Positions 4,649-38,355 of a stretch of 40,233 bases of DNA are shown one piece after another. How positions within the stretch are numbered: the stretch's first letter is position 1; each line of letters opens with the position of its first letter. The notes under the pieces were generated by a model. That model was given only the letters and a program-made list of their open reading frames with translations, ran no database searches and had not been told where the DNA came from. The stretch is from Deltaproteobacteria bacterium (GTDB taxonomy: Bacteria > Desulfobacterota > Syntrophobacteria > Syntrophobacterales > Syntrophobacteraceae): NCBI GenBank assembly GCA_021777755.1, contig JAJYDE010000037.1, positions 1-40,233 of the forward strand. Direction: 5' to 3'. Position numbers and translations under genes: made by a program.

Positions 4649-5149
4649 ATGGATTCAATGGTCAGGCGGGAACTTTCCGTGCTTCTAAAAGGTGGAAACG
4701 CTCATATGGATTTCGATGAAATAGTCGCCGACTTTCCGCTCGGCCACATGAACGGGAAGGCACCGGGAATGCCCTACAGCTTCTGGCAAATCATCGAGCA
4801 CATGCGCATCGCTCAACGGGACATACTGGAGTTCATACGCAACCCCGCCCACATTTCTCCCCATTATCCCGAAGGCTACCGCCCCGACCCCGGCGACAGG
4901 GCCGACAAAGAGATCTGGGGCGGGACGCTGTCCGGTTTCCGCTCCGATCTCAAGGCGCTGATCGATATGGTTCAAAATCCGGCGATCGACCTCTGTGCCC
5001 CCCTTCCACACGCTCCGGACTACACCGTTTTTCGGGAGATTCTGGTCGTAGGCGACCACAACGGCTATCATCTGGGGGAGTTGGCCATTGTCCGGCAAGT
5101 GATGGATCTTTGGCCGGCTGACAGGAAATATCTCACCGGGGCCCCCTGA
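4649..5149 (+). CDS. DinB-fold protein
   Basis: A 166-residue soluble protein with the DinB/YfiT four-helix fold pattern: an early metal-ligand candidate in FWQIIEHMRIAQRDIL and the late helix DHNGYHLGELAIVRQ, whose HNGYH provides the H-x3-H metal pair typical of the superfamily. Members are thiol-dependent transferases or of unknown role. The start at 4649 is preferred over 4592 because AAAGGA sits upstream and the extra N-terminal residues do not fit the fold. It ends 2 bp before the end of egtD on the opposite strand. EgtB also begins with a DinB_2 domain, so the adjacency may be functional or chance. Substrate unknown. Confidence 0.82.
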   Translation: MDSMVRRELSVLLKGGNAHMDFDEIVADFPLGHMNGKAPGMPYSFWQIIEHMRIAQRDILEFIRNPAHISPHYPEGYRPDPGDRADKEIWGGTLSGFRSDLKALIDMVQNPAIDLCAPLPHAPDYTVFREILVVGDHNGYHLGELAIVRQVMDLWPADRKYLTGAP

Positions 5150-26511: not shown

Positions 26512-27183
26512 GTGCGTATCCTTGTGGTAGAAGACAATAAATTGACATCGGACTATATCCAAAAGGGTCTGGCCGAAAGGGGCCACATCGTCGATATTGC
26601 CGATAACGGGGAGGACGGCTTCTATTTGGCTGCAAGCGAGCCCTACGATCTGATTATCCTCGACGTGATGCTGCCGCAAAAGAGCGGCTGGTCGATAATC
26701 AAGGATTTGCGAAAACAAAACAATGAGACCCCGGTCATATTCCTTACTGCGCGGGATGCTGTCCCGGACAGGATAAAGGGGCTCGATCTGGGTGCCGACG
26801 ACTATCTGGTGAAGCCCTTTGCCTTTTCCGAGCTGGTGGCGCGTATCCGCACGATTACACGACGCGCTCCGATCAGGCGCTCGGATGTCTGCCGGGTGGC
26901 GGACCTGGAGATGGACATAACCCGCCATAAAGTCTCAAGGAGCGGCAAAGTTCTCGACCTTACGGCAAAGGAATTTCTTCTTTTGGAACTTCTCATTCGG
27001 CGCAAGGGTGAGGTGCTCTCCAAGAGCTTTATCACCGGACAGGTCTGGGGCATATTGTTTGACAGCGACTCAAACCCGGTCGAAGTCGCAATCAGGCGAC
27101 TGCGCAAAAAAGTCGATGAGCCCTTCGAGGTGAGCCTGATTCACACGGTGCGCGGGGTGGGGTATGTGCTGGAAGAAAGATGA
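26512..27183 (+). CDS. OmpR/PhoB-family response regulator (CusR-like)
   Basis: A 223-residue regulator. Receiver domain 1-120: acidic E7/D8, phospho-acceptor D51 in DLIILDVMLPQKSGW, T79, and K101 in YLVKPFAF. The C-terminal winged-helix domain (about 125-223) has LDLTAKEFLLLELLIRRKGE and the end VRGVGYVLEER. The start is uncertain: GTG at 26512 gives the usual MRILVVEDN; ATG at 26500 and 26458 are in frame. It overlaps the sensor-kinase frame end to end and precedes an RND operon. It most likely binds the tandem repeat at 28674-28695. Confidence 0.92.
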   Translation: MRILVVEDNKLTSDYIQKGLAERGHIVDIADNGEDGFYLAASEPYDLIILDVMLPQKSGWSIIKDLRKQNNETPVIFLTARDAVPDRIKGLDLGADDYLVKPFAFSELVARIRTITRRAPIRRSDVCRVADLEMDITRHKVSRSGKVLDLTAKEFLLLELLIRRKGEVLSKSFITGQVWGILFDSDSNPVEVAIRRLRKKVDEPFEVSLIHTVRGVGYVLEER

Positions 27184-27205
27184 GGGCCGGTCGCGAGGAT
27201 TTCCG

Positions 27206-28639
27206 GTGAAATTCGGGACTCTGTCGCTTGCGGGCAGGCTGACATTTTTGGTGACCTTGTCTTTTGTCACGATTCTTTGTGTCGCCACACTGTATCTGTA
27301 CGTATCCATGCGCAAAAACGTATCCCGTGCGGACAGCGACTTTGTGTCCAATGAAATGGCTCATCTTAGAACCATCATATCGCGTTATTCAAATGATTCC
27401 AGGCTGCTGGTGGAAGAAGTTCGCGAAGAGGCGCAGTGGGAAGCCTCGGCGAAAAAGTCCACCATGTATTTCGTCAGGGTGCTAGGTAAGCATGGGAAAA
27501 TATTGGTCGAAACCGAGCATATGGAAAATATTCTGCCTCCCGCGCGCTTTCCGCCTCCGCTTGATTCCAAATTCGGTGAAAGGCGCCAATGGCAATCGGG
27601 TCATGGCAGGACTTTCCTGCTTCAATCGGCATGGGCCGGGTCTGGTGCCCATAAGCGGTATCTGATCCAGGTAGGCCTTGATATCTCTCATGAGGAGACA
27701 ATCCTGCTCGATTACCGGAAAAGGATGGCGATCGTCCTTTTCGCCGGCGTGATCATCTCGATTCTCATCTGTGTTTTGGTTGTTCGCACCGGGATGCGCC
27801 CTCTTGACGATATCATGAAGACTGTTCGAAGAATCTCCGCCGAGCAACTCCACGAAAGAATCGGACTCTCCCCTCGCGGGCCGAAGGAATTGACCACCCT
27901 GGCCGTAGCCTTCAACGGCATGCTCGATCGGCTCGAGGAAGCCTTCGGCAGACTTTCCCGTTTTTCGGCCGATATCGCCCACGAATTGCGCACCCCTGTC
28001 AATGGTCTGATGGGTGCGGCGGAAGTCATCCTATCCAGGGATAGAACGGCTGAAGAGTACCGGCAGGTGATTGAAGCCGGTATGGAGGAATACTCAAGGC
28101 TTTCGCGGATCATCGAAAGCCTTCTTTTTTTGGCGCGGGCCGAAAACAGGGAGATTCCGATCGAGCGTTGCCGCTTCGAGGTTTACAATGAGATGGAAAA
28201 TATTCGGGAATTGTACGACGCCGTTGCCGAAGAGGCCGGAGTGGAGGTCGTGTGCCGAGGTGAGGCGGCTGTCGATGCCGAACCCGTTCTTTTCCAGCGC
28301 GCGCTCGCAAACCTTCTGGCCAATGCGTTGCGCCACACTCCTCGGGGAGGACGCGTTGATCTTGTGGCGGAAAAGCTCCCGGATGGTTCCGTGGACATAA
28401 GTGTAAGCGATACGGGCTTTGGGATCGCACCCGAGCACCAGCCGAGGATCTTCGACCGGTTCTACCGGGTGGATCCCGCACGGTCCTTGAAAACCGCCGG
28501 CGCCGGGTTGGGGCTTGCAATCGTGAAATCGATCATGGAATTGCATGGCGGAAGAGCGACCATGCGAAGCGAGGTGGGCAAAGGAACGACCTTCACTTTG
28601 AGATTTCCCTGTCTCTTAAGACAAGCCTGCCTGAAGTGA
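27206..28639 (+). CDS. Sensor histidine kinase (heavy-metal sensor CusS-like)
   Basis: The 477-residue kinase has a first membrane helix (about 9-33), a periplasmic region of about 140 residues, a second helix (about 172-196), HAMP (RPLDDIMKTVRRISAEQLHE), then the dimerisation/phosphoacceptor site FSADIAHELRTPVNG and ATPase motifs LLANALRHTP, DTGFGIAPEHQPRIFDRFYR and GAGLGLAIVKSIMELHGG. GTG at 27206 has GAGGA upstream, so I prefer it to the start at 27164 that overlaps the regulator by 20 bp; the overlapping start would still be possible for coupling. All catalytic motifs are intact. The signal is unknown; heavy metals or envelope stress would fit the RND operon that follows. Confidence 0.9.
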   Translation: MKFGTLSLAGRLTFLVTLSFVTILCVATLYLYVSMRKNVSRADSDFVSNEMAHLRTIISRYSNDSRLLVEEVREEAQWEASAKKSTMYFVRVLGKHGKILVETEHMENILPPARFPPPLDSKFGERRQWQSGHGRTFLLQSAWAGSGAHKRYLIQVGLDISHEETILLDYRKRMAIVLFAGVIISILICVLVVRTGMRPLDDIMKTVRRISAEQLHERIGLSPRGPKELTTLAVAFNGMLDRLEEAFGRLSRFSADIAHELRTPVNGLMGAAEVILSRDRTAEEYRQVIEAGMEEYSRLSRIIESLLFLARAENREIPIERCRFEVYNEMENIRELYDAVAEEAGVEVVCRGEAAVDAEPVLFQRALANLLANALRHTPRGGRVDLVAEKLPDGSVDISVSDTGFGIAPEHQPRIFDRFYRVDPARSLKTAGAGLGLAIVKSIMELHGGRATMRSEVGKGTTFTLRFPCLLRQACLK

Positions 28640-28673
28640 GCTGTTTGCCGCTGATGTTGCCAAAAAATAACCC

Positions 28674-28725
28674 CTGTCAGGTTTCTGTCAGGTTGGTTGA
28701 ACTATCCTTGTGTCATTCATAATTC
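28674..28725 (+). promoter_or_regulatory. RND operon promoter with tandem 11-bp operator repeats
   Basis: Two direct repeats, CTGTCAGGTTT (28674-28684) and CTGTCAGGTTG (28685-28695), lie head to tail, then TTGAAC (28697-28702), a 17-bp spacer and TAATTC (28720-28725). The 11-bp period is that of tandem half-sites for OmpR-family regulators, and the repeats abut the -35 box, as in class II activation. The regulator gene ends 1.5 kb upstream. Confidence 0.82.
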
Positions 28726-28803
28726 CAATAAGTGGTCTGGAAGATTTTTTCGTCGGGATGGAGGGAGAGCCTTGAATATGGCAGTAGAGTATCGGGCGGG
28801 GCG

Positions 28804-30225
28804 ATGAGAATTGGGAATTGGGTTGTAATGGCCCTGGTGGTCATATCGGCAGGTGGGTGCGCTCAATTTCATCCGCATCCGCTATCCCCGGCAAAAACGG
28901 TTGAGGCGTTCGGGGGCCGCTCGCTTGGAAATCCGGCCCTGCGAGCCTTTATGGAAAAGAACAAGGTCTCCGCGCCAGGGGTTGGTGAAGCGTGGAATCT
29001 AAAAGCGTTGACGCTTGCCGCGTTTTACTACCAACCCGGTCTGGCCGAGGCGCGCGTGAAGTTGTTGGCTGCAAGGGCGGGCGAAATTACCGCCGGCGAG
29101 CGCCCCAATCCCTCGATAGCGGTGACTCCCTCATACGATTCGGGCATCCCTGGCAACTTCAGTCCGTGGCTGGTGCCGCTCACCCTGGACTGGCCCATCG
29201 AGACTGCGGGAAAGCGTGGCTATCGGCTTGCGAAGGCGCGCCATCTGCGGGAGGAGGCGCGCTGGAACCTGGTCGGGGCCGTGTGGCGGGTGCGCAGCGT
29301 CTTGCGAACCGCTCTGGTTGATCTTTACGCGGCAAAAGGAACCGAAACGCTTCTGGCGCGCCAAGCCGGGGCGCAAAGCCGGGTCGTGCGCATGCTGGAG
29401 GGCCAGGTTGCCGCGGGAGTTTTGTCCAGCTACGAAGTCACCCGGGCTCAAATTGCTCTGGATACGACAATCCTTGCCAGGCAGGCGACCGTTGGGCGCT
29501 ATAATCAGGCGTGTATAGCCCTGGCCGAGGCGTTGGGTGTTCCGACGGGGGCGCTGAAAGGCGTCAAGCTCTGCTTTGCGGACATGAAGACCTTCCCGAA
29601 AGGGTTGACCGAATCCCGGGTGCGGCAGCGGGCGCTTTTTAATCGCGCGGACGTAAGAAGCGCGCTGGCCGCTTATGCCGCCAGCCAGTCCGAACTCCAG
29701 TTGCAAATCGCCAACCAGTATCCCGATATCCATCTCGGACCGGGTTATGCCTGGAACAACGGCAATGCCGGCGACAACCAGTGGATTCTGGGGCCGACCC
29801 TGACACTGCCGGTCCTGAATCAGAACCAGGGGCCAATAGCTCAGGCCAAGGCTGATCGAAAGCTTGCCGCCGCCCATTTTCTCACCGTGCAGCTTTCCGC
29901 CTTAAGCCGGATTGACAGCGCTCTTGCCGCCTATGAATCGGCTTTGCGGGAGGTCCTTACTGCGGAGGGACTGCTAAAAAATCTGCGGCGAAGACTTGCC
30001 TCCGTGCGCGCGCAAGTTCAGGCGGGAGAGGCGGAACCGCTGGCTTTGGCCAATGCCGAGGTAGCCTTCAACGCCGGGGCCAGGGACCGGCTGAACGCCC
30101 TTATTAAAGCCCAGCAGGCCCTCGGCCGCCTGGAAGACGCGGTGCAAAGTCCGCTCACTCTCTCACCGCCCGCGCTGCATGCGGCCCGAACAGCACATAC
30201 CACGGATGAAGATTTGAAAAAATGA
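28804..30225 (+). CDS. Outer-membrane efflux lipoprotein, TolC/CusC family
   Basis: The 473-residue protein begins MRIGNWVVMALVVISAGGC, a lipoprotein signal with lipobox SAGGC. It then shows the repeated helical-barrel pattern of outer-membrane efflux proteins: LAEARVKLLAARAGEITAGE, PSIAVTPSYDSG, SYEVTRAQIALDTT, and in the second half RADVRSALAAYAASQSELQL, PDIHLGPGYAW. It should form the outer channel of the pump. ATG at 28804 is chosen because of the lipobox; GTG at 28732 would begin before it. It is the first gene of the operon; its stop overlaps the adaptor start by 4 bp. Confidence 0.9.
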   Translation: MRIGNWVVMALVVISAGGCAQFHPHPLSPAKTVEAFGGRSLGNPALRAFMEKNKVSAPGVGEAWNLKALTLAAFYYQPGLAEARVKLLAARAGEITAGERPNPSIAVTPSYDSGIPGNFSPWLVPLTLDWPIETAGKRGYRLAKARHLREEARWNLVGAVWRVRSVLRTALVDLYAAKGTETLLARQAGAQSRVVRMLEGQVAAGVLSSYEVTRAQIALDTTILARQATVGRYNQACIALAEALGVPTGALKGVKLCFADMKTFPKGLTESRVRQRALFNRADVRSALAAYAASQSELQLQIANQYPDIHLGPGYAWNNGNAGDNQWILGPTLTLPVLNQNQGPIAQAKADRKLAAAHFLTVQLSALSRIDSALAAYESALREVLTAEGLLKNLRRRLASVRAQVQAGEAEPLALANAEVAFNAGARDRLNALIKAQQALGRLEDAVQSPLTLSPPALHAARTAHTTDEDLKK

Positions 30226-31229
30226 AACCAAAATTTGGCACAATTGGTCTAATCGTTTTTTTAGGGGCCGGCCTTGGCGCCTATTGGCTGATAACCAAGC
30301 GCGGGGACTCTCCCGTTTCACGGACCGAGTCCGCGAAAGCAACGACACTTGTAAGCGTGCGGATCGGTGCGATCAAGCAACTGACCTTGCATCGCCACAT
30401 TACCGGGTACGGCACGGTCGCCCCGGCCCCCGCAACGGCGCGTCAACCGGCTGCGGATGCTCCCCTGGCCCCGTGCACCGCGGGCGTTGTGGCCGAGGTC
30501 AATGTGGCGGAGGCAGAGCTTGTGCGTAAAGGCGAGGTGCTGATGAGCCTGGATTCCGGCTCGACTACCGCGGCTTACGCCAAGGAGGAAGTAGCGCGGC
30601 AGAAACAGTTGTATGCCGAACACAATACCTCTTTGAAAAAGCTGCAAAACGCCGAGGCGAAATTGGCTTTGCTGCATGTCACCTCACCGCTTTCGGGCAC
30701 CGTGGTAAGCCTTAACGTCAAGCCCGGAGCCGCGGTCGATGTCAAGACGGTGGTGGCCGAGGTGATGGATCTCAAGCGCCTGGTGGTCAAAACCGCCGTG
30801 CCCGAATGGGAAGCCGATGAATTGAAAGTCGACGAGCCCGTGCGGGTGCTCTGCCGTCCGCCGGTTTCCGCCAAGCTTTCCTTTGTCAGCCCCACGGTTA
30901 ACACAGCCGATGGAACGGTCTCCGCGTGGGCGGCCTTGCCCGCGAACAGCGGCTTGCGCCCGGGCCGGTACGTAGGGTTGCGGATCGTTACGGCCACGCA
31001 CGCCAACTGCCTCGCCGTGCCGCAGGAAAGTGTCGTTACCCATGAGAATGGGAAAAGCGTCATCTCTTTGGTGCGAGGCAATGAGGCCGTGCAAGTTCCC
31101 GTGCGGATCGGACTGAGCGAAAACGGCTGGGTCGAGGTGAAGGGGGCCGGGCTGAAGGCGGGTTCGACGGTGGTTACCGTCGGGGCGTACGGGTTGCCCA
31201 AGAAAACCCGAATCCGGGTGGTGAAGTGA
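30222..31229 (+). CDS. RND efflux periplasmic adaptor (HlyD/MFP family)
   Basis: A 335-residue protein with one N-terminal membrane or signal helix (IGLIVFLGAGLGAYWLI). It contains a split lipoyl domain (CTAGVVAEVNVAEAELVRKG, then LLHVTSPLSGTVVSLNVKPG), a very short coiled hairpin between them (EEVARQKQLYAEHNTSLKKL), a beta-barrel part and a C-terminal membrane-proximal domain (VKGAGLKAGSTVVTVGAYGL). It links the inner-membrane pump to the outer channel. No Met- or His-rich metal-binding tail is visible, unlike CusB. Start overlaps the channel gene by 4 bp and the stop overlaps the pump start. Confidence 0.9.
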   Translation: MKPKFGTIGLIVFLGAGLGAYWLITKRGDSPVSRTESAKATTLVSVRIGAIKQLTLHRHITGYGTVAPAPATARQPAADAPLAPCTAGVVAEVNVAEAELVRKGEVLMSLDSGSTTAAYAKEEVARQKQLYAEHNTSLKKLQNAEAKLALLHVTSPLSGTVVSLNVKPGAAVDVKTVVAEVMDLKRLVVKTAVPEWEADELKVDEPVRVLCRPPVSAKLSFVSPTVNTADGTVSAWAALPANSGLRPGRYVGLRIVTATHANCLAVPQESVVTHENGKSVISLVRGNEAVQVPVRIGLSENGWVEVKGAGLKAGSTVVTVGAYGLPKKTRIRVVK

Positions 31230-34200
31230 TGGACTCGACCAATACCGGTGTGGGCCGGTTCGCCACCCGACACGCAATATCCATCACCTTCATTGCCGCA
31301 ATCATCAGCCTTGCCGGGATTTTTTGCGCCTTGCGCATGCCTTCGGCCGTGTTTCCCGAAACCCCCTTCCCGCGCATCGTCGTTATGGTGGGTAACGGCA
31401 TCATGCAGGCCAACGAAATGATGGCCACCATCACGCGTCCCATCGAAGAGTCGATGAAGAGCATTCCGGGCGTCAAGTCGGTGATCTCCTCCACCTCGCG
31501 CGGTTCGGCCGTCATCAATGTGGTTTTCAACTGGGGAACCAACATGGAGCGCGCCGAGGTCTATGTGATGGGGCGGCTTTCCGAAATTCGCGGCGATCTT
31601 CCCGCCACGGCGACCACCGATGTGTCCCGGGTGGCTTTCACCCTGAGCTATCCGATCATCGGCATAAGCCTCACCAGTTCGACTCGCGATCAGATGGACC
31701 TGTGGAATACGGCCGTTTATAAAATCAAGCCGCTGTTTTTGCGAATCCCCGGGGTGGCCAAGGTGGAAATCCTTGGCGGTCGGGAGCCCGAATATCATGT
31801 CGTGGTGGATCCTTTGAAATTGCAGGCGGCAGGCCTTGCCCTCTCGGACGTAAGCAGTGCGCTTACCAAAAACAACCTGATCGCCGCGGCCGGGATGATC
31901 ACCCAAAATTATCACCTCTACTTGACCACCGTTGACGGCCGGATAACGACCCCGGCGCAGATCGCCCGGGTGGTCATAAAGGTCGCAGGCGGGCATCCCG
32001 TTCTGGTGGGGGACGTGGCAAGGATTACCCGCGGGCCGAAGCCGGCCTACAAGAGCATCACCGCCCGGGGGCGCGAGGCCGTTCTGTTCAATATCGAAAG
32101 TCAGCCCGGTTCGAGCCTGCTTCGGATTGCCGCCGCTTTGAAACAGGACCTCGCCCGATTGCATGAAGAGTTGCCGCCGGATACGCACCTGGGATTTTTC
32201 TACGATCAGTCCAAATTTGTCAGCGACTCGGTGGGCAGCGTTTGGGACGCCATTATCTTCGGCCTGGCCCTCTCGGTTTTCATCCTTTATCTATTCCTCA
32301 AAAACTTCGGCAGCGTCATGACGGCCATTGTCACCATCCCCGTTTCGGTGCTCATCACCTTCGTTGTCATGCGCCTTTCGAACATGAGTTTCAATATGAT
32401 GACCCTGGGGGGCGTGGCCGCCTCGATCGGGCTCATTATCGACAACGCCATCGTGGTCGTGGAGGCGATGTGCCATCGGTTGGGCAGGGGCGGAGCCCGG
32501 CTGACCTGCATTCACGAGGCGATGGACGAAATTTTGGTGGCCCTTGTCGGCTCGACTCTTACCCCTGTCGTGGTTTTCCTGCCCCTGGCCTACCTGGGCG
32601 GTATGACCGGCGTGTTTTTTCGCGCCCTGGGGCTGACCATGGTGGTCTCGCTGCTGGTTTCGCTGATTTTGGCGCTGACCCTTACACCGTCCTTGGCCGC
32701 GTGGCTCATCAGCACTCGTTCCCTGCCCGAGGAAGCCGGCTCTTTTTTAACACCCGTTCTGCGCGCCTATGAATATGCGGTCCGCCTGGCCTTGCGAAAA
32801 AGCTGGCTGACGATGCTTGCATGCGGTTTTATTCTCCTCGCGTCGGTTTTCATTTACCAGCGGCTGCACACCGAATTTCTGCCTCATTTTGACGAGGGCG
32901 GATTCGTAATGGATTTTGCGGCCCGTCCGGGCACGAGCCTTGCCGAGACCTCGCGGGTCCTTGATGAAGCGGAAAAATCCATTCGCTCAAACCCCGACGT
33001 GGCGGGCTATTCCCGCCGGCTGGGCGCCCAACTGGGGCCCTTTATCACCGAGTCTTACGTGGGCGACTACCTGATCAAACTCAAAGGCGACCGGAAACAC
33101 TCCACAGAGCAGGTTCTGGCGGCCATGCGCCACAAATTCAACCGGATCTTTCCGATGATCCGCTGGGATTTTCACGGTTATCTAAATGATTTGATGGGCG
33201 ATCTGCAAATGGCGCCCAACCCGATCGAAATCTATTTGTACTCCCCGAATCTGCCTTGGCTTGAAATGGCCGCAAAGCGCGTCGCGGCCCGGATCGGAAA
33301 GATTCCCGGCGTGGTGGATACCTTCGACGGTCTCAAGGTCACCGGGCCTTCCGTCAACTTCCGGGTGCTACCCGCGGAGGCCAAACGTTACGGCCTGTCT
33401 GTAAGTGACATCGCCGAGGCCGTGCACACCGCCCTGCTTGGCAAGATCTCCTCCTACATCCTCGAAGGCGACCGCATCGTGAATATCCGGGTTATGGCCG
33501 ACCCCGAAAGCGTTTCGCTCATCAAGGAATTGGGCAATCTGCGGCTGCGCACCCCCGATGGCGTTCTGGTGCGGTTAAGCCAGGTCGCCGCCGTCCATAT
33601 CGAGCCAAACCAGGTGGAATTGAATCGGAAGGATTTGAGGCAGGACCTCATCGTCTACGCTCGTCTGGAAGGCATCGACCTGGGTACGGCCATGCGGGAA
33701 ATCAAGGCCCGGCTCGGCCGGGACCAATGGCTGCCGCGGGGTTCGATTGAATACGGCGGCCTCTACCGGCAGCAGCAGAAGTCTTTCCACAATCTGCTGG
33801 CGGTGCTCCTGGCCGCAATTTTGCTCGTATTCACCGTGCTGCTTGTCGAATACCGTTCCTTCTACGAGCCGATCGCCATTGTCGCAGGGGCCGTTCTGGC
33901 CTTGTTCGGCACATTGGCCGCACTTTGGATGACCGGTGTTTCGCTCAATATCGTCTCTTTTCTCGGCGCCATTATCGGGGTGGGGATAGTCGCCAAAAAC
34001 GGCATCCTGGTTATGGACTATTTCCAGCAACTGCGCGAGCAGGGCATGGAGCTGGTGGAGGCTCTGGTGCAAGCGGGCCATCGCCGGTTGCGCCCGGTGC
34101 TCATGACTTCGCTTGCCGCGGCTTTGGGCATGCTGCCGCTTGCCTACGGCGTTGGCACGGGCGCCCAGATGCTCAGGCCTCTTGGAATCGCCGTGATAGG

Positions 34201-34315
34201 GGCCTTGTTTTTTTCCCTGCTGCTGTCGTTGATCGTGACGCCGGTCGTCTATTATCTGCTGATAAGGATGCATTACAAATTCTTGCGAAGCCATCCTCAA
34301 AACGGTAATGTTTGA
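31229..34315 (+). CDS. RND efflux pump inner-membrane subunit (AcrB superfamily)
   Basis: The protein of 1028 residues has the duplicated 6+6 membrane-helix layout with two large periplasmic loops. Motifs: PSAVFPETPFPRIVVMVGNG after TM1, the TM4 segment GGVAASIGLIIDNAIVVVEA (about 396-415), LTPVVVFLPLAYLGGMTGVF, and TM10-TM11 IIGVGIVAKNGILVMDYF. In most RND pumps TM4 carries Asp-Asp (multidrug) or a single Asp (metal). Here it is Asp-Asn, and TM10 has KNGI as in common pumps. Substrate is not predictable. ATG at 31229 overlaps the adaptor stop (TGATG). A GTG directly before it is also possible. Confidence 0.92.
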   Translation: MDSTNTGVGRFATRHAISITFIAAIISLAGIFCALRMPSAVFPETPFPRIVVMVGNGIMQANEMMATITRPIEESMKSIPGVKSVISSTSRGSAVINVVFNWGTNMERAEVYVMGRLSEIRGDLPATATTDVSRVAFTLSYPIIGISLTSSTRDQMDLWNTAVYKIKPLFLRIPGVAKVEILGGREPEYHVVVDPLKLQAAGLALSDVSSALTKNNLIAAAGMITQNYHLYLTTVDGRITTPAQIARVVIKVAGGHPVLVGDVARITRGPKPAYKSITARGREAVLFNIESQPGSSLLRIAAALKQDLARLHEELPPDTHLGFFYDQSKFVSDSVGSVWDAIIFGLALSVFILYLFLKNFGSVMTAIVTIPVSVLITFVVMRLSNMSFNMMTLGGVAASIGLIIDNAIVVVEAMCHRLGRGGARLTCIHEAMDEILVALVGSTLTPVVVFLPLAYLGGMTGVFFRALGLTMVVSLLVSLILALTLTPSLAAWLISTRSLPEEAGSFLTPVLRAYEYAVRLALRKSWLTMLACGFILLASVFIYQRLHTEFLPHFDEGGFVMDFAARPGTSLAETSRVLDEAEKSIRSNPDVAGYSRRLGAQLGPFITESYVGDYLIKLKGDRKHSTEQVLAAMRHKFNRIFPMIRWDFHGYLNDLMGDLQMAPNPIEIYLYSPNLPWLEMAAKRVAARIGKIPGVVDTFDGLKVTGPSVNFRVLPAEAKRYGLSVSDIAEAVHTALLGKISSYILEGDRIVNIRVMADPESVSLIKELGNLRLRTPDGVLVRLSQVAAVHIEPNQVELNRKDLRQDLIVYARLEGIDLGTAMREIKARLGRDQWLPRGSIEYGGLYRQQQKSFHNLLAVLLAAILLVFTVLLVEYRSFYEPIAIVAGAVLALFGTLAALWMTGVSLNIVSFLGAIIGVGIVAKNGILVMDYFQQLREQGMELVEALVQAGHRRLRPVLMTSLAAALGMLPLAYGVGTGAQMLRPLGIAVIGALFFSLLLSLIVTPVVYYLLIRMHYKFLRSHPQNGNV

Positions 34316-34334: not shown

Positions 34335-35168
34335 ATGGACTCCTATTGTGTCTCTTTCCGGCCCGAGGTGGAAATGGAGGAAAACCTCCCGCCCCTTGCC
34401 GGAATGGATGATCCTCGAATAATCGATCTTCTGGGCAGGGCCGCGGGCGTCTTGCTGCCCGCCCACGTGTCTCCATGGCGCTATCTGAAGATGACCGGCC
34501 TTGCCCGAAATTGGTTTCCCCGCCTGGACGTTCAGTTCAATTCACGGGGTAAGACAAAGCAGGCCTTTCTTTTCCAGAAGCTGGGGGTCCGCCATCCGGA
34601 GACCCTCGTTTTCCAAAATCCGCAAAATCTCCAGGATCATCTCAACCTGCACGGCTCTCCATGGGGGTATCCCTTCGTACTCAAAGGAGACCTTGGCGGC
34701 GGGGGCGATACGGTTTTTCCGGTCTTCGAGCCCGAAGAAACCGCCACCCATCTTGCAAAACTTCCGAAAGACGGCCCGCTTCTTATCCAAAAATGTGTGG
34801 CCCACGGTGGTAAAGACCTTCGGGTGGTGGTCTACGCAGACCAGGCGGTGAGCTATTTTCGGGTTGGCGGCGGCCGCTTCTACAACAATATCTGCCGGGG
34901 CGCAAAACTTGATCACGATGGCTGGCCGGAGTTGCAGCAAAAGGGCGTTGCGGCCGCCCTGGCATTTTCCGCCCGTGCCGGGATCGACATAGCCGGCTAC
35001 GACTTGATGTTTCCAGATGATGGCGAGCCGGTTTTTATAGAAGTCAATTTTCATTTCGGAAGGAAGGGACTGGGAGGCGCCAAGGAGCACAGCCGCCATG
35101 TTCTGCGGGCGATTTGGCGCTGGCGCGCCCGTGCCATGTCGGGTAAATTGTCTGCCGAATGTTTATGA
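34335..35168 (+). CDS. RimK-like ATP-grasp protein
   Basis: A 277-residue protein with an ATP-grasp fold: an N-terminal part with SPWRYLKMTGLARNWFPRL and RGKTKQAFLFQKLGVRHPE, then the nucleotide-binding YPFVLKGDLGGGGDTVFPVF (lid Lys and Gly-rich loop), and the metal-ligand region PVFIEVNFHFGRKGLGG (Glu and Asn) near residues 234-250. Such enzymes ligate carboxylates to amines with ATP; the substrate is unknown. The gene starts 19 bp after the RND pump and could be part of its transcript, or it may belong with the phosphoketolase 57 bp downstream. Confidence 0.83.
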   Translation: MDSYCVSFRPEVEMEENLPPLAGMDDPRIIDLLGRAAGVLLPAHVSPWRYLKMTGLARNWFPRLDVQFNSRGKTKQAFLFQKLGVRHPETLVFQNPQNLQDHLNLHGSPWGYPFVLKGDLGGGGDTVFPVFEPEETATHLAKLPKDGPLLIQKCVAHGGKDLRVVVYADQAVSYFRVGGGRFYNNICRGAKLDHDGWPELQQKGVAAALAFSARAGIDIAGYDLMFPDDGEPVFIEVNFHFGRKGLGGAKEHSRHVLRAIWRWRARAMSGKLSAECL

Positions 35169-35225: not shown

Positions 35226-37670
35226 ATGATAAAACCATCCGGGCAAAGGGAGCCGGCCAATCTGAACGAGAGTATCAGCGCTTACGGACCTGCTCGCTCC
35301 ACCGTGGGAGGAACTCCGCTTGGACAAGACGAACTGCGCCGGATCGACTCCTATTGGCGGGCCGGCCTGTATCTTTGCCTCGGAATGCTCTATCTCAAGG
35401 ACAACCCCTTACTAAAAGAGCCGCTAAAACCCGAGCACATCAAGCCGCGCCTCCTCGGCCACTGGGGATCGGACCCCGGTCAGTGCTTTGTCTACACTCA
35501 TTTCAACAGACTGATCAAAAAATATGACCTGAACGCGATCTACGTCTGCGGTCCCGGCCACGGCGCCCCGGCGGTGCTCGCCAATTCATATCTGGAAGGG
35601 GTCTATTCGGAGGTCTATCCGGACAAGAGTGAAACCATCGACGGAATGCGGCGCTTTTTCAAACAGTTCTCCTTTCCGGGCGGAATCGGCAGCCACGCAA
35701 CCCCCGAGACCCCGGGCAGCATCCACGAGGGAGGCGAACTGGGCTACAGCCTTTCCCACGCTTTTGGAACCGTCTTTGACAACCCCGACCTTATCACCCT
35801 TGCGGTAGTGGGAGATGGAGAATTCGAAACCGGCCCCCTGGCCACCAGTTGGCACAGCAATAAATTTCTGAATCCCATTGTGGACGGGGCGGTGCTTCCC
35901 GTGCTGCATCTAAACGGCTACAAGATCAACAACCCCACCATCCCGGCCCGCATAAGCCATGAAGAACTCGAGCACCTGTTCAGAGGCTACGGTTATACGC
36001 CCTATTTCGTGGAAGGCAGCGATCCCGAAAGCATGCACCAGGCCATGGCCGCGACGATGGAGCACTGCGTTCTGGAAATCCGCGGCTTCCAGCAACAGGC
36101 GCGCAGTGCGGGCGTGGAGTTTCGGCCCAAATGGCCCATGATCGTTTTGCGCACTCCCAAAGGCTGGACCGCGCCCCGCAAGGTTGACGGCCATTACCTG
36201 GAAGGTTTCTGGCGGGCCCATCAGGTCCCTATTGTCAACGTCGCCGCGGACCCCGACCGCCTCAGGCTGCTCGAATCGTGGATGCTGAGCTACGGGCCGG
36301 ACAAACATTTCGACGAACAGGGAAAGCTGATCTCGGAATTAAAAGCCATGGCGCCCGAAGGCAACCGGCGTATGAGCGCAAACCCGGTGGCCAACGGGGG
36401 GCTTTTGCGCCGCCCCCTGGAAATTCCCGATATGCGTGAGTTCGCCGTGCCGATTGAGCGCCGGGCCGTGACCGTGGCTGGAAACGTGCCGGTTCTGGGA
36501 GGGTTTCTGCGCGACATCGTGCGGCTCAATCCGCGCAATTTCCGCGTTTTCGGTCCCGACGAGACCCAATCGAACAGGCTTGAGGCAATCTACGAGACAG
36601 CCGGCAAGGTCTGGCTCGGAGAGTATTTCCCGGAAGATGCCGACGGGGGCGAACTCAGCCCCCGGGGACGGGTCATGGAGATGCTTAGCGAGCATACCGT
36701 GGAAGGCTGGCTGGAGGGCTATCTGCTAAGCGGCAGGCACGGCTTTATCAACAGCTACGAGCCCTTTGTGCATTTGATCGATTCGATGGTCAATCAGCAC
36801 GCCAAGTGGCTGGAAAAGTGCCTCGAAATTCCCTGGCGGGCAAGAGTGGCTTCGCTTAACCTGCTCATCACCGCGCTCGTCTGGCGACAGGACCACAACG
36901 GATTCACCCACCAGGACCCGGGCTTTCTCGACGTCGTGGCCAACAAGAGTCCCGAGGTCGTTCGCATCTACCTGCCCCCCGACGCCAATTGCCTGCTTTC
37001 GGTGGCCGACCACTGCTTGAGGAGCATAAATTACATCAACGTGATCGTCGCCGACAAACAACAGCATCTCCAGTACCTTGATATGGACGCGGCGATCACC
37101 CACTGCACCAAAGGGGCCGGAATATGGGAGTGGGCTGGAAACGACCGGGGAGTCGAGCCCGATGTGGTCATGGCCTCCTGTGGGGATGTGCCGACCATGG
37201 AGGCCCTTGCGGCCGTCGCTTTGCTCCGGCAGGAATTACCCGACATGAAGATCCGGTTTGTAAACGTGGTCGATCTCTTCAGGCTGGTGCCCCGAAGCGA
37301 ACATCCTCACGGTATGACCGACAGGGAATTCGAGGCCCTGTTTACTTCGACCAAACCGGTGGTGTTCAACTTCCATTCCTATCCCTGGCTGATCCATCGC
37401 CTGACCTACCGCCGGCCGGGCCAGCACAACATTCATGTGCGCGGCTACAAGGAGATGGGCAACATCAATACGCCGCTGGAGCTGGCTATCCTCAACCAGA
37501 CCGACCGTTTCAGCCTGGCCGTTGACGCCATCGACCGTGTTGTCCGTTTCCGGGAGACGGGGTCCAATGTTCGGGAGGCGCTGCTCGATCGGCAGATCGC
37601 CTGCCTAAATCATGCCTTCCAAAACGGAGTCGACAGGCCGGACATTACCGACTGGAAATGGCCCCTCTAA
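35226..37670 (+). CDS. xfp: Phosphoketolase (xylulose/fructose 6-phosphate)
   Basis: The protein of 814 residues has the full Xfp length and order: N-terminal [60 protein letters not shown], the ThDP/Mg2+ motif [20 protein letters not shown], and [11 protein letters not shown]; the C-terminal part has [15 protein letters not shown]. It splits xylulose 5-phosphate (and in many members fructose 6-phosphate) with phosphate into acetyl phosphate and a sugar phosphate, in the cytoplasm. ATG at 35226 has AGGAGA upstream. Acetate kinase or phosphotransacetylase, which would use the acetyl phosphate, are not in this window. Confidence 0.95.
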
Positions 37671-37805
37671 ACCGGCTGGGAGGTCATGCCCCGGAGGGCT
37701 TTTCCCGGCGGGATCAAACCGTCCATGCATCGATTTGGATTATGTCGCTGAGAGGGGCCGCTTCGGCCTTCGCACAATCGAGCCTTACTCGTGCGGGACG
37801 AGTTG
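37671..37805 (+). other. Junction between phosphoketolase and orphan Rhs fragment
   Basis: There is no recognisable Rhs YD-repeat sequence here, though a frame stays open through it from 37612. The Rhs homology begins abruptly near 37806, which marks the likely breakpoint where an Rhs C-terminus was joined to unrelated sequence. Confidence 0.45.
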
Positions 37806-38355
37806 TTTCCATTGGAAATCTTATGATCCCAATGCGGGGATGTGGTTGGCCAAGGACCCGATTTTGTTCAAAGGCGGGGATAGTGACCTTTATGGGTATG
37901 TTCAAGATGATCCGGTCAATCTTATTGACCCGTTGGGTCTGATGGTAACGATCGTAATTAGTAACAGGGCATACTCCTCCACCGGCAACAGTGTGGCGGG
38001 AACGATCTCTGTTACCAGCGACCAGACCTCAGATTCGTTCTCGGGTTACACAATGGAAAATGCCAACGCTGGTGACCAAGGAGACAAGCCTCCGATTCCA
38101 GCCGGAACATATGACGCCTTTGTTAGGACAGACCACACACCGAATCGTGTCGAACTAGAGAATGTTCCAGGCTACAGCAACATACAGATTCACAACGGAA
38201 GTTATCCGCGGAATTTCGAAGGGTGTGTCGGCGCAGGAACATCACATTCCACCGACTTCCTTGGAGGAACCGTAAACGCGATCAACCAAATAGATAGTAT
38301 CATTCATGCCGACGGATCAGGAAACATCACGGTAATCGTTGGTCCGGTCCAATGA
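37806..38355 (+). pseudogene. Orphan Rhs C-terminal tip with DUF5675-like toxin domain
   Basis: The core end is intact: YDPNAGMWLAKDPI, then DLYGYVQDDPVNLIDPLGL, the conserved border of Rhs proteins. The tip of about 140 residues then shows PPIPAGTYDAFVRTDHTPNR, VELENVPGYSNIQIHNGSYP and FEGCVGAGTSHSTDF. A late IxIHxG and GCxxxG pattern with conserved His and Cys is that of DUF5675, a family with an L,D-transpeptidase-like His/Cys arrangement. The large Rhs body is missing, so it is a displaced tip, possibly translated from ATG at 37840. Immunity-like gene follows with a 4-bp overlap possible. The peptidoglycan target is inference. Confidence 0.75.

Follow-up and report, generated by a model that had tools for sequence, protein, structure and literature searches.

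The window, meaning the whole stretch of 40,233 nucleotides that was analysed, encodes a two-component system and, downstream of it, the outer membrane protein (OMP), the periplasmic adaptor and the RND permease of an efflux pump (Table 1). The response regulator belongs to the OmpR/PhoB family, with PF00072 and PF00486 both above their cut-offs, and reached 324.1 bits against TIGR01387 (curated cut-off 279.2). The neighbouring kinase reached 428.8 bits against TIGR01386 (cut-off 292.55). Judged by sequence, the adjacent pair is a heavy-metal (CusR/CopR-type) two-component system. Its genes adjoin those of the pump and the unit is conserved, as in the two-component system-RND modules of the CusRS, CzcRS and AdeRS type. 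The start context of the OMP gene, GGGCxGGGCGATGAGAAT, is common to the window and to L010, the corresponding locus of the relative G030. Directly after the RND gene lies a gene for a RimK-like ATP-grasp protein (34335-35168, below the TIGR00768 cut-off), which in another relative, G032 (L080), has a homologue about 3.8 kb past the RND gene.

Table 1. Features of the regulatory and pump genes in the window, and further copies of the site in the same genome.
Feature	Position	Strand	Remark
Response regulator, receiver and winged helix, TIGR01387 (CusR/CzcR/CopR) subfamily	26512..27183	+	probable operator binder
Sensor histidine kinase, TIGR01386 heavy-metal (CusS/CzcS) subfamily	27164..28639	+	assigned by profile score
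Putative operator, two direct 11-bp half-sites, CTGTCAGGTTT and CTGTCAGGTTG	28674..28695	+	same site in three relatives and at two other operons in this genome
TTGAAC-N17-TAATTC of the sequence-only reading	28697..28725	+	hexamers present, unconserved, probably not the promoter
Inferred -10 element TATCCT	28703..28708	+	11 nt 3' of the second CTGTCAG; TAnnnT in all six copies of the site
Outer membrane efflux lipoprotein (OEP family)	28804..30225	+	likely start ATG 28804, in frame with an ORF from GTG 28732
Periplasmic adaptor (RND_mfp)	30222..31229	+	assigned by profile search
RND permease (ACR_tran)	31226..34315	+	below the cut-off of every multidrug and metal model, therefore substrate class unassigned
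C35 site			before a second OMP-adaptor-RND operon
C26 site			before a gene for a DUF3300 secreted protein

Upstream of the pump operon, 34 bases past the stop of the kinase gene, the two half-sites follow each other directly (CTGTCAGGTTT, 28674-28684; CTGTCAGGTTG, 28685-28695); after them come a single G and TTGAAC at 28697. The + strand of the window contains a single exact 10-mer repeat at an offset of 11 bp, compared with a mean of 0.055 in dinucleotide shuffles, and the repeat unit recurs elsewhere in the window only as a single one-mismatch copy at 4928. A sequence-only reading of this DNA had reported the tandem 11-bp repeat with TTGAAC 1 bp later, and the coordinates, the shuffles and the genome search described below all confirm it. 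Because CTGTCAG is close to its own reverse complement (CTGACAG), the window copy alone can be read in either orientation. A hidden inverted repeat was nevertheless rejected, as the other copies of the site have TCGTCAG, TTGTCAG or CCGTCAG, with an invariant GTCAGNTT, and thus form a direct repeat.

The site is not confined to this promoter. A first, unbiased genome search with the heptamers of the sequence-only reading (up to two mismatches) already found C35:11223 and C26:40725. With the refined pattern GTCAGNTTNYNGTCAGGTT, the whole genome contained three exact matches, none at one mismatch and two at two mismatches, and matches at three mismatches were at chance level. The two additional exact copies are unlinked and each precedes a gene on the correct strand. 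For the permease of the C35 operon, the CusA/CzcA model was the closest, at 608.5 bits against a cut-off of 701.45. Another DUF3300 protein, E. coli yacH, was reported in a study of the CpxR regulon (PMC9600279). Looking for the repeat elsewhere in the genome had been proposed together with the view that the locus is a compact autonomous sensor-pump module. The conserved unit of two-component system and pump bears out one half of that view. Autonomy does not stand, since the same operator before two unlinked operons makes the pump module part of a small regulon and not an isolated unit. In the three relatives with the site (G029, G030 and G032), the paralogous C35-type operon is without it, and in none of the four genomes is the regulator gene preceded by a copy that could serve autoregulation.

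Conservation was followed in 39 genomes of the order with the pattern GTCAGNTTNCNGTCAGGTT, at up to one mismatch and with the reversed pattern as a control. Six exact matches were obtained, of which this genome holds three and G029, G030 and G032 have one apiece; the reversed pattern gave none. One-mismatch matches in G013, G014 and G038 were treated as chance; the regions in G014 and G038 hold no homologue of the module. In the three relatives, the site sits between the kinase gene and a gene for a small secreted protein, which is followed by the pump operon. Pairwise identity, averaged over the four orthologous places, was 0.88 for the 22-bp site, 0.32 for the preceding 40 bases and 0.30 for 40 bases starting 15 nt after the site. 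Of the 11 genus genomes, the four that have the site are exactly those that encode an orthologue of the regulator (80-88%); they are same-genus kin and do not represent four independent events. G028 has kept the pump (OMP 67%), with no adjacent two-component system, only a 50% paralogue of the regulator, and no site. A stricter exact form of the site was found in the window only among 395 genomes of the phylum, a weak negative, as this form misses the variant copies of the relatives. The tandem repeat thus very probably serves the adjacent two-component system as its operator. An OmpR/PhoB-family operator of direct 11-bp repeats, bound most likely by the regulator encoded upstream, was also what the sequence-only reading had proposed, and the co-occurrence of site and regulator supports it.

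The described operators of this regulator subfamily are inverted repeats, such as the ATTACA-N4-TGTAAT box of AgrR; AgrR operators also have in-phase direct half-site copies, and AgrR was proposed to be a type II activator (PMC7380067). The sequence-only reading had not recognised that the regulator falls into this CusR/CopR/AgrR subfamily. The palindrome of E. coli CusR is AAAATGACAAnnTTGTCATTTT (PMC11195947). E. coli CusRS with cusCFBA and Cupriavidus AgrR resemble the window in that their regulator falls into the same NCBIfam subfamily and is encoded next to an RND operon. The window site, too, has direct half-sites in phase ahead of the -10, and it shares TGTCA with the CusR palindrome (CusR/AgrR half-sites are TGTCA/TGTAA). 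In contrast to these systems, the window has the direct pair only and misses the inverted half-site, its half-site ends in G-N-T-T, and its genes are co-directional instead of divergent. The inverted repeat ATKACANNNNTGTMAT was not found near 28640-28750 at two or fewer mismatches, the best match having three (p 0.18 against shuffles). In AdeRS-AdeABC of Acinetobacter, a two-component system also lies beside an RND operon with a direct-repeat operator between them, although the gene order there is divergent and the repeat sequence differs from that of the window. A literature search for a CTGTCAG direct repeat in connection with a response regulator yielded no relevant paper.

At loci in other families of the phylum that encode a relative of the regulator (56-61%), the kinase gene is followed after 15-30 nt by a box with in-phase 11-bp direct half-sites. 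At L149 (regulator 60%), the box ATTACAGAATTGTAATCTTCCTGTCATTGTCCTGTCTGTATCTATTTGGTATTTT consists of the inverted ATTACA-N4-TGTAAT followed by direct half-sites in 11-bp steps; a -10 lies eleven nt past the last half-site, and the next genes encode an OMP, an adaptor and an RND permease of the C35 type. L153 (ATTACAAAATTGTAAT), L155 and L157 likewise have this box together with direct copies (shuffle p ≤0.013), and ATKACANNNNTGTMAT is present with 0 mismatches at L149, L153 and L157. No such box lies behind the kinase gene at L150, L151, L159, L160 and several other loci. At L153, L155 and L157, and at L158 with a weaker box, the genes next to these CusR-type boxes do not encode pumps. The recognition-helix region reads DSDTNVVDV in the regulators of L149, L153, L155 and L157, and DSDSNPVEV in the four direct-repeat regulators; these changes may have caused an altered specificity. 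It is plausible, and to us somewhat probable, that in this lineage the CusR/CopR-type regulator switched its operator from inverted plus direct TGTAAT to a pure direct, PhoB-like TGTCAG pair, with the changes in the helix, and that the second pump and the DUF3300 protein were recruited in trans. As an operator, the pure direct TGTCAG pair departs only modestly from a known kind.

A chance repeat without function is practically negligible as an explanation. Nothing but the shortness of the site speaks for it, and six conserved copies across four genomes, with none in the reversed-pattern control, speak against it. The promoter itself can be drawn in two ways. At the six copies of the site, the hexamers TATCCT, TAATTT, TATTTT, TATTTT, TATCCT and TATCTT lie 10-11 nt past the second heptamer, and the hexamers 16-18 nt upstream of this -10 agree with TTGACA at two positions at most, i.e. 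there is no -35. As TAnnnT is found at this fixed distance in every copy, we read the promoter as TATCCT with the operator replacing the -35. The sequence-only reading had instead seen a near-consensus promoter, TTGAAC-N17-TAATTC, in which the repeats directly precede and touch a genuine -35 box. Both hexamers do exist with the 17-nt spacer, but TTGAAC matches TTGACA at 4/6 positions and TAATTC matches TATAAT at 2/6 (6/12 together), the pair is absent from the promoter-scan listing, and neither hexamer is kept in the five other copies, whereas the TAnnnT element and its spacing are conserved. We consider that version of the promoter very unlikely. With the conserved -10 at 28703, the repeats fill the -35 region and do not lie beside a -35 box, a layout that is, by its spacing, Pho-box-like and of the class II activator type.

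This likeness raises the question of which regulator binds. The genome encodes four full-length OmpR-type regulators: that of the window, a paralogue on C67 (49%), another on C8, and PhoB, encoded next to a kinase on C74. The window regulator is favoured because of its co-occurrence with the site and its neighbourhood, and the CusR/AgrR-type boxes in the wider set of relatives are the stronger evidence. PhoB could instead bind, alone or with the neighbouring regulator, and couple the pump to phosphate starvation. It is the main rival, since core, period and spacing are those of a Pho box, and PhoB of E. coli is reported to occupy TGTCATTTTTCTGTCACC in the cusR/cusC promoter (PMC10294691), a sequence that adjoins the CusR palindrome (PMC11195947). 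A PhoB/PhoR pair is encoded in the genome, and its pstS (L128, 8450-8572; G000:C78) carries a triple Pho box that is easily recognised, TGTCACGCCGATGTCACACATCCGTAAC, followed after 10 nt by TATCTT. Pho boxes, including this one, and the site have in common direct TGTCA repeats at 11 bp in the -35 region and a -10 about 10-11 nt downstream, and the -10 distance equals that of TGTCACGCCGATGTCACACATCCGTAAC-N10-TATCTT. However, the sixth base is always G at the site and C in the pstS box, which scores as a different sequence. In the E. coli Pho box, the sixth base is often T. Furthermore, the site is linked to pumps and a CusR-type regulator; none of its three copies in the genome precedes a phosphate gene or lies near one. 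Relatives of the PhoB type are also found in genomes of the genus that lack the site, whereas site and adjacent regulator co-occur exactly. Sixth base, gene context and distribution disfavour PhoB as the main binder, and we regard this coupling as unlikely, with cross-talk still conceivable. The regulators on C67 and C8 are candidates in so far as there are only four, and that on C67 is a close paralogue, but C67-like regulators are present in genomes without the site and no copy of it lies in the C67 region; that one of these two is the true binder is extremely unlikely.

Taken as a whole, the data are best explained, with a high probability in our view, by the repeat serving as operator for the CusRS/CopRS-like two-component system next to it, with class II activation of the pump and action in trans on C35 and C26. 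What the kinase would sense is, going by its family only, probably a metal ion or some other envelope stress. Once phosphorylated, the regulator would occupy the two 11-bp half-sites as a dimer in head-to-tail orientation; these half-sites span roughly -41 to -20, the usual place of the -35 box. The dimer would recruit RNA polymerase to the -10 TATCCT (class II activation), with a transcription start predicted near 28715, and the OMP-adaptor-RND operon would thereby be switched on. It is further predicted that this regulator controls, in trans, the second RND operon (C35) and the gene of the DUF3300 secreted protein (C26).

What began as a lone repeat thereby becomes a small regulon that comprises three operons and can be tested, and the promoter is corrected. 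As a stress regulon it is mostly ordinary, and its switch is slightly unusual. The relatives and this genome would offer a natural series of operators, inverted-plus-direct there and direct only here, in which the site of a metal-type regulator drifts towards a Pho-box layout. Such a series bears on how sister regulators of the OmpR family keep their targets apart or engage in cross-talk.

Some further observations concern the surroundings of the module. In G029, G030 and G032, the first gene after the operator encodes a small secreted Tyr/Pro-rich protein of about 97 aa with an Asp/His-rich tail (L009/L078, L010/L079 and L011/L080, respectively), possibly a metal binder. It is absent at the window locus; a homologue search of the window genome was empty, which proves little. 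At 37612-38355 of the window, an ORF overlapping the end of a phosphoketolase-like ORF combines the end of an RHS-repeat core (YDPNAGMWLAKDPI...LYGYVQDDPVNLIDPLG) with an unrelated C-terminal domain and, by eye only, looks like an RHS tip fragment. Finally, L038, from the Verrucomicrobiota MAG REEB211, has an OMP-adaptor-RND set that is 65-74% identical to that of the window, with a regulator at 44%, a kinase at 31% and no operator; in this comparison, the pump appears to change regulators.
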